Source of the DNA: a virus
Length of the DNA: 24,169 nt
IMG/VR virus record: IMGVR_UViG_3300024352_000084
Span: 1-24,169 of that record
Strand: one strand, 5' to 3'
The notes beneath the pieces were generated by a model. The model worked only from the letters and a program-made list of their open reading frames with translations, did no database searches and was not told where the DNA came from. Shown piece by piece: positions 7,125 to 23,759 of this stretch (within the stretch, counting starts at the first letter, position 1; each line of letters opens with the position of its first letter). The position numbers and the translations under genes are program-made.

Positions 7125-10100
7125 TTATCCTAAATAACTTCCTGATGATGTAAATTTCAAAATAGTATTGCTACCGCTAGTTGTTACTGTTGGCGAACCT
7201 GTTGTGATACCTGTGTAATTTGCAGTAGGAATAGAAAGAATAACAACGCCTGAACCACCTGCTCCGCCATTAGAGTCATTTCCACAGCCGCCACCGCCGC
7301 CGCCAAGGTTAACTGTGCCTGCCGAACCTGATCCTGTTGATCCTGTGCCGCCTCCGCCCGAGCCTCCACCGCCGCCCGATCCTCCGGAGTTTGCGCCTCC
7401 GCCGCCCCCGCCTGCATATGTGACGCTAGAGCCTGTAATAGACGATGCTGCACCTGCTCCGCCGTTTCCGCCTGTTGTGCCGCTTCCTGAGCCGCCAACT
7501 GCGCCTGCTCCACCGCCGCCACCTCCGGCTTGGTTTGCGCTACCGCCGCCCGCATAACCTTGGCCTGATGTTCCACTCGCACCGCTTCCGCCTGACCGCC
7601 CGCCGCCGCCCGAACCTCCGGACGTTGCGCCAACAAATGTACTTGCGCCTCCGCCACCGCCTGTCGCAGCAACAAGAGAGCCAAGGTTTGAATTTGAACC
7701 TGGGCTTGGCCCGCCACCGGAACTTGCGTTTGTACCGCCCGATCCACCTGCACCAACGGTAATGACATAAGTTGTTGATGTAGCTAATTGCGTTGTGCCC
7801 GCAAGCAAACCACCTGCACCGCCACCACCGGATGCGGAGTTGCCCGAAAATGTGCCTCCGCCTCCGCCACCACCTGCAACAACTAAATAAGAAATTGTAT
7901 AAGGCAAACCTTGGTTGAAAGCAACCCAAGCGGACGATGCTGTGCTATACCACTCAGGAAAACCTGTTGTGGTATTCATTCTTATTTCACCGTTTGTAGG
8001 TGATGGGTCTCGTTGTGCAGTAGTGCCAATCGGGATTCTTAACCCCAACGTATTATTGCTTGCATCAACAACTCCGGTTGATGCCGTAATTGCTAAATTA
8101 CTAGCAGATGATTGCAACAAAGGCGTTGTGACTGAAGTTGTGCCAATTACGCTTGGAGAACTAAGTGCACCCGTTGACGGGTTGTAGCTTAACTTTGTTG
8201 ATGATGTATAAATTGTGCTTAACGACCCGCTCGTTGCAGCCGTAAAGTTAATGTACCTAGTGCCGTTTGTTGTCGTATCGTCACTAATTGTTGCGCCTGT
8301 AGCTGTTGACGCAATTGTGATCGATCCCGCACCGTTTGTAACAGTAATGCCTGTGCCCGCAGTAATTGCAGCCGCAGTATAGTTTGTGCCATTGCCAATC
8401 GGGATATAGCCGTTTGATGGCGTTGTCGTAATACCTAAACCACCATACGCTACACCAAGCGTTCCCGCTGATATGTTGGATGCGCTCAACGATGTTAACG
8501 ATGCGCCCGATCCGCTAAACCCTGTGGCGGTTAAAACGCCTGTGCTTGGGTTGTATTGATATTTAGTCGAACTTGTGTAAATCGTTGATGCTGATCCGCT
8601 TGTTGTTGTGGAAAACAAGGGATAGCGTGTGCTGTTAGTAGTGGTATCGTCCGAAAAAGATACACCGCCCGCAGCCGCTTGCCATGTTGGGGCACTTGTA
8701 CCGTTTGAAGTTAGCACATAACCAATAGTGCCAGCAGCAACAAAACTAGTAGTACCTGATCCGGACTGATATGGAACATAACCCGCACCTCCGCCCGCTA
8801 AATTAGTAGCAGTTGTTGCGCTTGTTGCGCTTGTTGCACTTGTTGCGGTTGTTGCAGTTGCAGCATTGCCGCTAATGCTAATGCTCCAAGTACCGCTTGC
8901 ACCTGTACCGTCTGCTTTAGGTGCGCCTAATGTGTTGTAAGACACAGTTTTGGCAGCACTTCCGTTAAACGTAGCACCGGATGCATCACCTGTACCGCTA
9001 TTGTTAAACGTAACAGCGTTAGCAACCGATCCTACGCCTGTAACCGAACTAGGTGCAATGTTGCGCCAATAGCCGCCCGCTGCGTAATATTGAATTAGAT
9101 CATTGTTAGCAAGTGTGCCAAATTGAACGTTTGAATCCGTGCCACCAAGCGTTGATCCTAAATTGATCAATACTTGAAATGATCCTGATCCGCCGCTTCC
9201 GGCACTAATAACAGTACCCAATTTAACTTTGATGCCAGGCGCAACGGGTTCGGTTTTGGTTAATCCGCCTGTTGTCGGGTTGTACCAAATATCATCGTTA
9301 TCTGCCCATGTTTCGCCGTATGCAGCACCGTTTGTTGTAATGCCATGTATCACACCATACGATGTAATACGACCAAATCCGTTAGTAGCAATGTTTTCTG
9401 TAGCCATACCGATAAACACATCGGCATGAGTAATCCCCGCAGTAGCCGGAGCAAATGTAATAACGCCGCTTGAGCCTACCGTGCCCGTCTTTACAACGGC
9501 TTGCAAAGGCGAATCAGTAATTGCTGCCGATGCCTTGCCATACACAAACAATTCTTCGCCGATTTGCTGAGTGATGTTGCCACCACCCATCCCTGCGTTC
9601 AATGAACCCGTTGTTTGGTCATACCATAAGCGTCCGGCTGCTAATGTAGTGCCTGATCCGCTGCCCATCTGAATGTAAGTTGGGCTGCTAATTGATCCTG
9701 TAAGCCCCGACATTGATGTAATGTCAGAGTTAGCACCGCTTTTGGCTGCACTTAAGTTAGAACGGGCTGTAGTGGCATCTGTAGCACCTGTGCCGCCATT
9801 TGCAATGGCAATCGTTGTGCCGTTCCATATGCCTGTGGTAATCGTTCCAAGCGTTGTAATGCTTGTTTGCCCTGGGTAAGTATCGGAAATCTTAACGCCG
9901 CTTGACGATACATTCAGCGTTGTACCGTTAGCCAGTACAGAGAATGTATTGCCTGTCAGCGCAAGACCATCGCCCGCAATGTAATTACCCGCAGAGCCAA
10001 ATTGCGTCCATGTGATAGGCGTTGTGCCTAATGTACCGCCCGCATCGCTGATACAAACCCAACCCGTGTCGGCTTGAGTCGATCCCTGTTGGATAAACGT

Positions 10101-22166: not shown

Positions 22167-22492
22167 TTTGTCATTTTGTCCATTTGTCGGTTACTTGCCT
22201 GTTCCGTGCGCCAGGCATCAAAACGCATCCTTGCCGCCTCTAGCCGCCACTTCAACAATTCTGCTTTTTCTGTGGCCTCTCCTATTGCGGTGCACAATTG
22301 CACATAATTCTCACTAGCGTATGCCTCTCGCTCTTGTGCGCCTATGCTTGTTTCATTGGATTTTTTCATTTCAATGGCTTTGAGGCTTGATTTGTATACT
22401 TCCAAACTAGCCAAATCGCCTTTTGCCTTAGCGTATGCGGGAGCGTTTTCCCAAATGTATTCAATCGCTGGGTGCGGGCTGTAATCTGTCAT
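22163..22492 (-). CDS. Conserved phage early protein, helical (109 aa)
   Basis: A mostly helical protein: YSPHPAIEYIWENAPAYAKA (residues 4-23), AIEMKKSNETSIGAQEREAYA, YVQLCTAIGEATEKAELLKW, and a final LEAARMRFDAWRTEQASNR. The pattern HPA..YI...A..YA.AK ... QEREAYA ... ARxRxxxWRxxxASNR recurs in many phages, to my recollection, beside early recombination or replication genes. No function is known. The ATG at 22492 is chosen because it lies in an ATGA overlap with the methyltransferase stop. The frame is open a further 10 codons, but without a ribosome-binding site. It ends in an ATGA overlap with the DUF3310 gene. Charge distribution suggests it could bind nucleic acid or oligomerise as a coiled coil. 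Confidence 0.85.
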   Translation of the reverse strand: MTDYSPHPAIEYIWENAPAYAKAKGDLASLEVYKSSLKAIEMKKSNETSIGAQEREAYASENYVQLCTAIGEATEKAELLKWRLEAARMRFDAWRTEQASNRQMDKMTK

Positions 22493-23388
22493 TTTAAGAG
22501 TTCCCAAGCTGTTGCTGCACATAAAGGGACTTGTCCATTTCCAATGGCTTTAAGTCTGTCCATTCTGGCGGCCACCCCATTAGCCACTCTACCCACGTTG
22601 GGTTCAAATGACCACCAACTTGCGCTGCCAAAGTCGGCGTATTTCGTTCCGATTCGCTGGGAGCATTTGTTTCCTTTGCGTTGTGTGATGTTGGTGTTGG
22701 CCATATTCTTTGACCCACTATCGTTTCCAAATTCGGGTTGCGTTTTTCGTTCCAAGCAGATTCCGGTGTTATTGTTGCCGCCATTGCGCTGCAACTCCGA
22801 GGTGTGGGCCAAATTTCCAACCGTTTCTTTAATGCTTTCCGACTGTTGCTCCCACCGTCCATTCCCGTTGTATTCGGTGTGTGAAAAAAAGTTTCGTTGT
22901 TCGGCTCTAATCCATATTCTTTCACGCTGATGGTTTGCACCAATGTCGGCAGCAGATACAACGCCCCATTTTGCATCGAACCCCAACGTGGAAAGGTCTG
23001 CAAGGACAACTCCAAGTCCTCTAGTAGTGAGCATTGGGCTGTTTTCCACAAAGACGTATTGGGGTCTAACCTCGCCAATGATCCTTGCCATGTGTTTCCA
23101 CATACTTGATCGTTCTCCTTCAATTCCTGCGCCTCGTCCAGCTGCGCTAATGTCTTGACACGGAAATCCTCCAGATACAACGTCAACAATTCCTCGCCAC
23201 GGTCTGCCGTCAAAGGTTTGAACATCATCCCAAATCGGGAAAGGCGGGAGAATTTTGTCATTTTGTCGGGCGCACAATACGCTTGCTGGGTATTGTTCCC
23301 ACTCAACGGCGCAGACAGTTCGCCATCCAAGCAGGTGTCCCCCAAGTATTCCTCCACCAGCACCTGCGAAAAGAGCCAACTCATTCAC
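22489..23388 (-). CDS. C5-cytosine DNA methyltransferase (299 aa, GTG start)
   Basis: The enzyme adds a methyl group to cytosine C5 in DNA, probably protecting phage DNA from host restriction. All main motifs are in order: motif I LFAGAGGGILGGHLLG (residues 6-21), motif IV GGFPCQDIS (73-81) with catalytic Cys77, motif VI FVENSP (113-118) with Glu115, motif VIII QRERIW (154-159), and the C-terminal motif X AIGNGQVP near residue 280. Residues about 163-255 form the variable target-recognition region. The start is GTG, with GGAGG 4 nt upstream, and the gene begins inside the stop of the previous gene. It ends in an ATGA overlap with the next gene. A second long frame (22494-23384) lies across its whole length, which is highly unusual. 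Confidence 0.93.
   Translation of the reverse strand: MNELALFAGAGGGILGGHLLGWRTVCAVEWEQYPASVLCARQNDKILPPFPIWDDVQTFDGRPWRGIVDVVSGGFPCQDISAAGRGAGIEGERSSMWKHMARIIGEVRPQYVFVENSPMLTTRGLGVVLADLSTLGFDAKWGVVSAADIGANHQRERIWIRAEQRNFFSHTEYNGNGRWEQQSESIKETVGNLAHTSELQRNGGNNNTGICLERKTQPEFGNDSGSKNMANTNITQRKGNKCSQRIGTKYADFGSASWWSFEPNVGRVANGVAARMDRLKAIGNGQVPLCAATAWELLK
22494..23384 (-). CDS. Overprinted frame: WPTP/WVEWLMGWP-type phage protein (296 aa)
   Basis: This frame lies one base off the methyltransferase frame over almost its full length and has no stop for 296 codons. It is not random. From about residue 68 it follows a pattern I recognise from proteins encoded beside or across phage cytosine methyltransferase genes: YLEDFRVKTL (70-79), TWQGSLARLDPNTSLWKTAQ (98-117), FPRWGSMQNG (131-140), two WPTP motifs (192-195, 228-231) and GGHLNPTWVEWLMGW (257-271). 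Its ATG is 8 nt after GGAGG, better spaced than the methyltransferase GTG. No function is known to me. It could be a true second protein, or a conserved-looking frame forced by codon constraints of the enzyme. The first 60 residues are less typical, so an internal start such as 23228 is possible. Confidence 0.5.
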   Translation of the reverse strand: MSWLFSQVLVEEYLGDTCLDGELSAPLSGNNTQQAYCAPDKMTKFSRLSRFGMMFKPLTADRGEELLTLYLEDFRVKTLAQLDEAQELKENDQVCGNTWQGSLARLDPNTSLWKTAQCSLLEDLELSLQTFPRWGSMQNGALYLLPTLVQTISVKEYGLEPNNETFFHTPNTTGMDGGSNSRKALKKRLEIWPTPRSCSAMAATITPESAWNEKRNPNLETIVGQRIWPTPTSHNAKETNAPSESERNTPTLAAQVGGHLNPTWVEWLMGWPPEWTDLKPLEMDKSLYVQQQLGNS

Positions 23389-23759
23389 GCTGCCTCCGCA
23401 ATGCGTTGTGCAATCCTGGTTCTAAATTGAGCCATGTCCTCACCTGGGCGTGGGTTCATAGCCAATTCACGGGCCTTATCCATTGTTAACTGTTCGGTGC
23501 TATACCAAGGCAAAGGCGGCTTTTTGTTAACCTTAGGCTGCATATCCAATTCATCTTCATAGCGGCCCTGATTGAGCCATGTAGACGGATGCGGAATGTA
23601 CTCTATGCCCGTTTCTTTTAGTTTCCAATATTCCAAATGATCATCAATAGCGCAACAAGCTAAATCTTGTTCCATTGGTGTTAGCTTGTTAAACGCTTTC
23701 ATCGCCTCTTTTTTGGCAACTTTGCGAGGGTATTTTGACCAAAATTCATCAAAGCTCAT
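23385..23759 (-). CDS. Phage replication-type protein with FDEFWxxYPRK domain (124 aa)
   Basis: The N-terminal pattern FDEFWSKYPRKVAKKEAMKAF (residues 3-23) followed later by GIEYIPHPSTWLNQGRYEDEL (about 51-71) is typical of the C-terminal domain of phage replication proteins of the lambda-O / DnaT / helicase-loader type. Here it stands alone, without the usual N-terminal winged-helix DNA-binding domain. It might assist loading of host helicase onto phage DNA, or be a remnant. The C-terminus (ARELAMNPRPGEDMAQFRTRIAQRIAEAA) is helical. The start is ATG at 23759 in an ATGA overlap with the upstream gene. Its final codons contain the GGAGG that serves the methyltransferase, and its TGA lies inside the GTGA start of that gene. 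Confidence 0.85.
   Translation of the reverse strand: MSFDEFWSKYPRKVAKKEAMKAFNKLTPMEQDLACCAIDDHLEYWKLKETGIEYIPHPSTWLNQGRYEDELDMQPKVNKKPPLPWYSTEQLTMDKARELAMNPRPGEDMAQFRTRIAQRIAEAA

Follow-up and report, generated by a model that had tools for sequence, protein, structure and literature searches.

The usual explanation for a fully overlapping gene pair is that a new accessory gene has joined an old one. Among the C5-cytosine methyltransferases, the reading frame of the small subunit of M.EcoHK31I overlaps that of the large one. Natural two-chain enzymes of this family exist, in which the small subunit contains only motif IX (M.EcoHK31I) or motifs IX and X, next to a chain with motifs I-VIII (M.AquI) (PMC3404938). 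In M.EcoHK31I and M.EaeI, the large subunit carries motifs I-VIII and X and the small subunit motif IX, and the large subunit of M.EcoHK31I also has a predicted recognition domain (PMC3404938). The small domain of C5 methyltransferases consists of a variable region and motif IX (PMC3404938). In the single-chain enzymes M.HhaI and M.HaeIII, and in two phage relatives of the locus described here (L433 and L436), the recognition domain and motif IX are in frame with the catalytic large domain, which comprises motifs I-VIII and X.

A second protein encoded in another frame inside a phage methylase has also been reported, namely the HNH ORF of the ShiLan domain (PMC11855218). In the Paenibacillus phage Shelly, gp56 (L002, positions 1642-2346) is annotated inside the methyltransferase SHELLY_55 as a 'g55 internal gene' and corresponds to the frame called B below. 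The ShiLan HNH is a mobile homing insert confined to the insertion, whereas B spans the methyltransferase itself.

The window, i.e., the whole stretch of DNA that was analysed, comprises 24,169 nts of the IMG/VR virus record IMGVR_UViG_3300024352_000084. A first-pass annotation made from the sequence alone had reported two open minus-strand frames of 299 and 296 codons, A and B, over a cytosine methyltransferase gene; both are located where it put them and contain the motifs that it quoted (Table 1). Frame B is the +1 frame of frame A and starts 4 nts downstream of the A start. Each B codon is made of the second and third bases of an A codon and the first base of the next, so that the second position of B, its most important one, is the wobble position of A. 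Hence, the conservation of A alone cannot dictate B. It is probable, as argued below, that a single C5 methyltransferase is split here into two subunits encoded in fully overlapping frames, A being the catalytic subunit and B the recognition/motif-IX subunit.

Table 1. Features of the overlapping methyltransferase locus (positions in the window).
Feature	Coordinates	Strand	Remarks
Frame A	22489..23388	-	GTG start, 299 aa; probable C5-cytosine methyltransferase catalytic subunit; PF00145, phrog_363, Foldseek
Frame A residues 1-165, motifs I-VIII (FAGxGG, PCQ, ENS, QRERIW)	22894..23388	-	High pLDDT; A dNS/dSS 0.04-0.05
Frame A residues 166-257, linker in place of recognition domain	22618..22893	-	Disordered, neutral in frame A
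Frame A C-terminal part, motif X (RLKAIGNGQVP)	22492..22617	-	pLDDT 81-92 over last 20 residues; constrained in A
Frame B	22494..23384	-	ATG start, 296 aa; overlapping gene; proposed recognition/motif-IX subunit
Frame B residues 1-165, over A catalytic motifs	22890..23384	-	B dSN/dSS 0.34-0.36; ~65-163 related to sister-clade short +1 ORF
Frame B variable region, WPTP repeats	22617..22889	-	Proposed target-recognition domain; sole frame constrained here
Frame B motif-IX-like block GHLNPTWVEWLMGWPPEWTDL	22548..22616	-	Best motif-IX matrix window in 84/101 B proteins
Double start GTGAATGAG	23380..23388	-	A GTG at 23388, B ATG at 23384; TGA of upstream gene directly before B ATG
Shine-Dalgarno GGAGG	23393..23397	-	8 nts before B ATG, 4 nts before A GTG
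Upstream gene, 124 aa	23385..23759	-	TGA overlaps A GTG, abuts B ATG

Frame A carries motifs I, IV (PCQ), VI (ENV/ENS), VIII (QRxR) and X in the order that defines a C5-cytosine methyltransferase, and matches phrog_363 (2.3e-66). It had been taken for a complete enzyme, a description that does not hold. The match to PF00145 (6.5e-33) covers only positions 4-216 of 324, i.e., the first two thirds of the profile, that to M.HhaI (7.5e-35) residues 14-176, and the NCBIfam dcm score of 87 bits lies under the 100.65 cut-off. A motif-IX matrix derived from 17 single-chain enzymes detected no in-frame motif IX in A. In an AF2 model built from 66 sequences, the mean pLDDT of 10-residue blocks is 90-98 as far as residue 160 and at least 82 as far as residue 170, falls to 39-55 over most of residues 180-270 (predicted disorder at ~170-270) and rises again to 81-92 at motif X, while Foldseek aligns 168-170 columns of the model to M.HaeIII or M.HhaI, corresponding to the large domain only. 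Frame A therefore contains neither motif IX nor a folded recognition domain on its own chain; variable region and motif IX, the contents of the small domain (PMC3404938), are exactly what it lacks. The same contrast is seen within 18 bacterial genomes, where PF00145 spans 1-320 in ordinary methyltransferases and mostly ~4-200 in those overlapped by B; the +1 frame of the ordinary enzymes in these genomes is interrupted by 7-33 stops, and none of them has a B.

Frame B ends in the block LNPTWVEWLMGWPPEWT, which resembles motif IX. In 84 of 101 B proteins, this NPxWVEWLMG block is the window that scores best with the motif-IX matrix (window p 0.016). In the nearest relatives devoid of B, motif IX is found in frame A and reads LTPVECEALMGWPPDHT, compared with LNPTWVEWLMGWPPEWT in B; likewise, the frame-A motif IX of single-chain relatives, RRLTPVECEALMGWPPDHT, can be set against GHLNPTWVEWLMGWPPEWT in the B of the window. 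That the block corresponds to motif IX is suggested by this short resemblance, its position, its complementarity to A and two fused cases described below. By its position between motifs VIII and IX, the variable region of B is proposed to be the target-recognition domain. Beyond a match to phrog_1008 (1.3e-27), profile searches of B against Pfam, NCBIfam, PADLOC and the PDB returned nothing significant, and AF2 of B alone (101 sequences) gave a poor fold (pLDDT 58) with no PDB fold match. Alignment of B with single-chain methyltransferases by hhalign was not significant either, the best C-terminal columns being LMGWP/LMGFP. The first-pass annotation knew of no described function for B: a literature search indeed found neither a function nor an analysis of the overlap, but a plausible function can now be proposed, B carrying what A lacks.

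Under the split-enzyme reading, A would be the alpha chain, with the AdoMet-binding catalytic domain (motifs I-VIII), a disordered linker and motif X, and B the beta chain, supplying the missing small domain, in which the WPTP-containing variable region would be the recognition part and LNPxWVEWLMGWPxGWT motif IX. The two chains are expected to assemble, B would read the DNA sequence, and the assembled enzyme would methylate DNA of the phage (or of the host), probably as a protection against host restriction, which is the usual role of phage methyltransferases. The division of motifs over two open frames, with a putative motif IX on the second, is that of a two-subunit C5 methyltransferase and resembles that of M.EcoHK31I. 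However, M.EcoHK31I has its predicted recognition domain on the large subunit, a region where A is neutral and disordered and B is constrained. Furthermore, the present pair is borne by phages and prophages, the overlap is complete, the starts are 4 nts apart in one clade and no restriction partner was identified. M.AquI differs in that the window and most of its relatives keep motif X on the catalytic chain and use a second frame of the same bases for the other chain.

For the analysis of selection, single-base differences between disjoint pairs of relatives were sorted, frame by frame, into synonymous and nonsynonymous ones, and the corresponding opportunities were taken into account. In the main set (92 disjoint pairs from 207 relatives), dSN/dSS for B over the entire overlap was 0.32 [0.28-0.36] and dNS/dSS for A 0.21 [0.18-0.25], the intervals being somewhat too narrow as the pairs share deep ancestry. 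The +1 frames of neighbour genes, used as a control, gave 1.52 [1.0-2.5]. Over motifs I-VIII the values were 0.052 for A and 0.34 for B (0.04-0.05 and 0.34-0.36, respectively, across both sets), and over the last 45 codons 0.31 and 0.33. Between motif VIII and the C-terminal block, A reached 1.19 [0.92-1.68] and B only 0.10 [0.06-0.17], with a dNN/dNS of 0.05. Loci selected through A alone gave 1.68 [0.92-4.16] for A in this middle part, B being at 0.10-0.13 across sets; there, 256 changes were silent in B alone and 20 in A alone, compared with 85 and 828 over motifs I-VIII. In the same loci, the constraint on the B frame vanished past the B stop. A second clade (Lactobacillus/Paenibacillus-type), also selected through A, yielded 1.63 for the B frame before B, 0.42, 0.16 and 0.08 inside and 2.5 after, with 0.71 [0.42-1.32] for the middle of A. 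Purifying selection thus acts in each frame beyond the demand of the other, as judged against neighbour genes and flanking parts. These two-frame counts identify B as a coding gene. The constraint moves from frame A to frame B between motifs VIII and X, and in mid-gene it is the protein of frame B alone that matters.

Phages and prophages from many bacterial phyla have kept the overlapping arrangement, which is almost always annotated as one gene. B was found over A in phages of Acinetobacter, Salmonella, Vibrio, Pseudomonas, Mycobacterium, cyanobacteria, Paenibacillus and Lacticaseibacillus, as well as in bacterial contigs of Proteobacteria, Verrucomicrobia, Spirochaetes, Nitrospira and others. 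Few copies occur on plasmids (4 records) and in E. coli (4 of 5,426 genomes). By tblastn of phage records, B was present in 81 and A in 818. Among 150 further loci selected through A, about 129 have a full B; in 14 (L419-L432) A ends after motif VIII and is accompanied by a short +1 ORF, L433, L434 and L436 encode single-chain enzymes with an in-frame motif IX, and the remainder are truncated contigs.

Two loci, L248 (a Spirochaetia MAG) and L241 (Paraburkholderia adhaesiva), are natural REARRANGEMENTS, in which A stops just past motif VIII and motif X (KRLKAIGNGQVP and SRIRALGNGQVP, respectively) is found behind the LNPxWVEWLMGWP block on the chain of B. The first chain thus comprises motifs I-VIII and the second the recognition region, motif IX and motif X, as in M.AquI. 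Motif X is hence able to share the chain of B, and this layout argues that the B block occupies the place of motif IX, the middle of A being only a tether to motif X. The M.AquI-like division is also seen in L420 (2037-2810) and L426 (2097-2810), the two loci of the L419-L432 group that were inspected, where a catalytic chain of ~195 aa is followed by a separate downstream chain with a recognition region, motif IX (RRLMPLECERLQGFPDDWT) and motif X.

The short +1 ORF of the sister clade (L433 1772-2155, L436 1790-2173, L522-L569, L420 1694-2143) encodes 115-152 aa with the signature LSxKACxGILRR (...YFLSxKACxGILRRAxRRGKxLP...), though motif IX sits in frame A. It is constrained, with values of 0.31 inside and 1.6 and 6.3 outside (12 pairs), and the ORFs of L420 and L426 match positions 65-163 of the B-family HMM (31 bits). 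Part of B must therefore do something besides supplying motif IX, and the relatedness of the two ORFs implies that the overlapping module predates the takeover of motif IX by B. The main alternative starts from here: B could be made but have another job, as a regulator, an inhibitor or an anti-restriction factor, its likeness to motif IX being coincidental and A having a reduced or unusual recognition region. The constrained ORF, lying over an enzyme whose motif IX is in frame, would fit such a role, as would the lack of any significant fold or profile match for B. It is nevertheless unlikely, because A has neither motif IX nor a folded recognition domain, the constraint on A ceases at the very place where the recognition domain belongs, L241 and L248 place motif X behind the B block on one chain, and B was never found without A. 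On this last point, a search for stand-alone B proteins, proposed in the first-pass annotation, gave none: all 80 bacterial loci found through the own motif of B have it in the +1 frame over A.

For the preferred reading of a split methyltransferase, a likely route would be that the recognition region and motif IX came into the +1 frame, A keeping motifs I-VIII and, via an open neutral linker, motif X. In a tree of motifs I-VIII, a single branch (SH-aLRT 99) separates all 66 B carriers from the rest, indicating one gain; the tree was built by a quick method, and losses of B may be undersampled. The somewhat favoured scenario is one ancient event, in which the recognition half grew from an older overlapping module beside a single-chain methyltransferase and gave rise to a widespread phage enzyme.

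The start region is consistent with separate translation of both frames. Over 217 relatives, the start consensus is [AGT]TGAATGAG[TC]; the B start is ATG in 213, the A start is ATG, GTG or TTG in 188, and a Shine-Dalgarno sequence is found in 180, with a modal spacing of 8 nts to the B ATG. In the second clade, the B start lies within A; a Shine-Dalgarno sequence precedes 77 of 100 first start codons, compared with 62 of 364 control internal ATGs. B accordingly has its own start and a predicted ribosome-binding site in both clades. Ribosomes would initiate both at the B ATG and at the A GTG 4 nts upstream or, in the second clade, internally from the Shine-Dalgarno sequence of B, and translational coupling to the upstream gene is likely.

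Catalytic and recognition parts in neighbouring frames could also be joined by programmed +1 frameshifting of the ribosome close to where motif VIII ends, in which case a separate B would not be a functional product. A single +1 shift would indeed restore the order of motifs I-VIII, recognition region and motif IX, but frame A would remain necessary for motif X. Such a fusion is very improbable, since the A-to-B junction has no conserved heptamer (codons 160-180; the best occurs in 27 of 152 clusters), the N-terminal 100-165 residues of B are constrained, and B has the start signals just described.

That B is protein-coding is near-certain. When the synonymous codons of A in the window were shuffled, the +1 frame had a mean of 6.1 stops, compared with only two observed, those bounding B, and B is uninterrupted in 75 of 76 distinct relatives picked by A alone, where 0.06 would be expected from shuffling synonymous codons within each gene; the earlier view that a 296-codon frame is unlikely by chance is thereby borne out. 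B is open even in loci of 33-39% G+C, the composition that is least favourable to long open frames. Where a conserved residue of A has a fourfold codon, the third base is in many cases frozen (e.g., G in 98/98, C in 107/107 and G in 108/108), with variation rising near and past the end of B. The first-pass annotation had left a choice between two proteins being made and B being a shadow propagated by databases: the former is supported by a constraint on synonymous sites of A that ends with B and exceeds that on A in mid-gene. The latter, an untranslated B kept open passively by codon usage in A, would account for its missing Pfam, NCBIfam or PADLOC family and rare annotation but deserves practically no credence and was rejected by the shuffling and the selection counts, given the frames open against expectation, the frozen wobble bases that form the second position of B and a constraint that is not seen in control genes and stops where B stops. 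Three observations had been named beforehand as speaking against B, and neither stop codons in B of close relatives nor free synonymous variation in A was found; only the third, the lack of stand-alone homologues, was made.

In this locus, two frames thus appear to split one enzyme, with constraint switching frame where the domains switch, so that the way in which overlapping genes arise and persist can be studied with a clear biochemical read-out. If the proposed division is correct, catalysis and specificity are locked into the same bases. Of the 'DNA cytosine methyltransferases' of phages and prophages whose annotation comes from A alone, many are then probably half enzymes; the annotated A expressed by itself could yield an inactive protein, and A-based predictions of specificity would be drawn from a neutral linker. 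The few database traces of B (phrog_1008, SHELLY_56) are labelled just 'DNA methyltransferase' or 'hypothetical protein', and most other records annotate A alone.

Interruptions of a single frame are rare among the relatives and hit A more often than B. Stops in A with an open B occur in L020, L027, L028, L215, L222 and L235, which may be either decaying copies or cases of further splitting, while L098 has an internal stop in B. In an E. coli prophage (PCP07014; L520 3003-3764), A has an internal stop and is given as a pseudogene in the annotation, and the breaks in A and B are only a few bases apart. In L170 (1402-2161) and L244 (3001-3984), single indels swap the frames in mid-gene and produce chimeras of the B N-terminus and the A C-terminus; the former corresponds to gp74/gp75 of Mycobacterium phage Llama, annotated as two DNA methylase genes. 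Elsewhere in the window, a 194-aa open frame (7184..7768, minus strand) lies over the glycine-rich end of a 1165-aa tail-like protein; it is of low complexity and probably due to chance.
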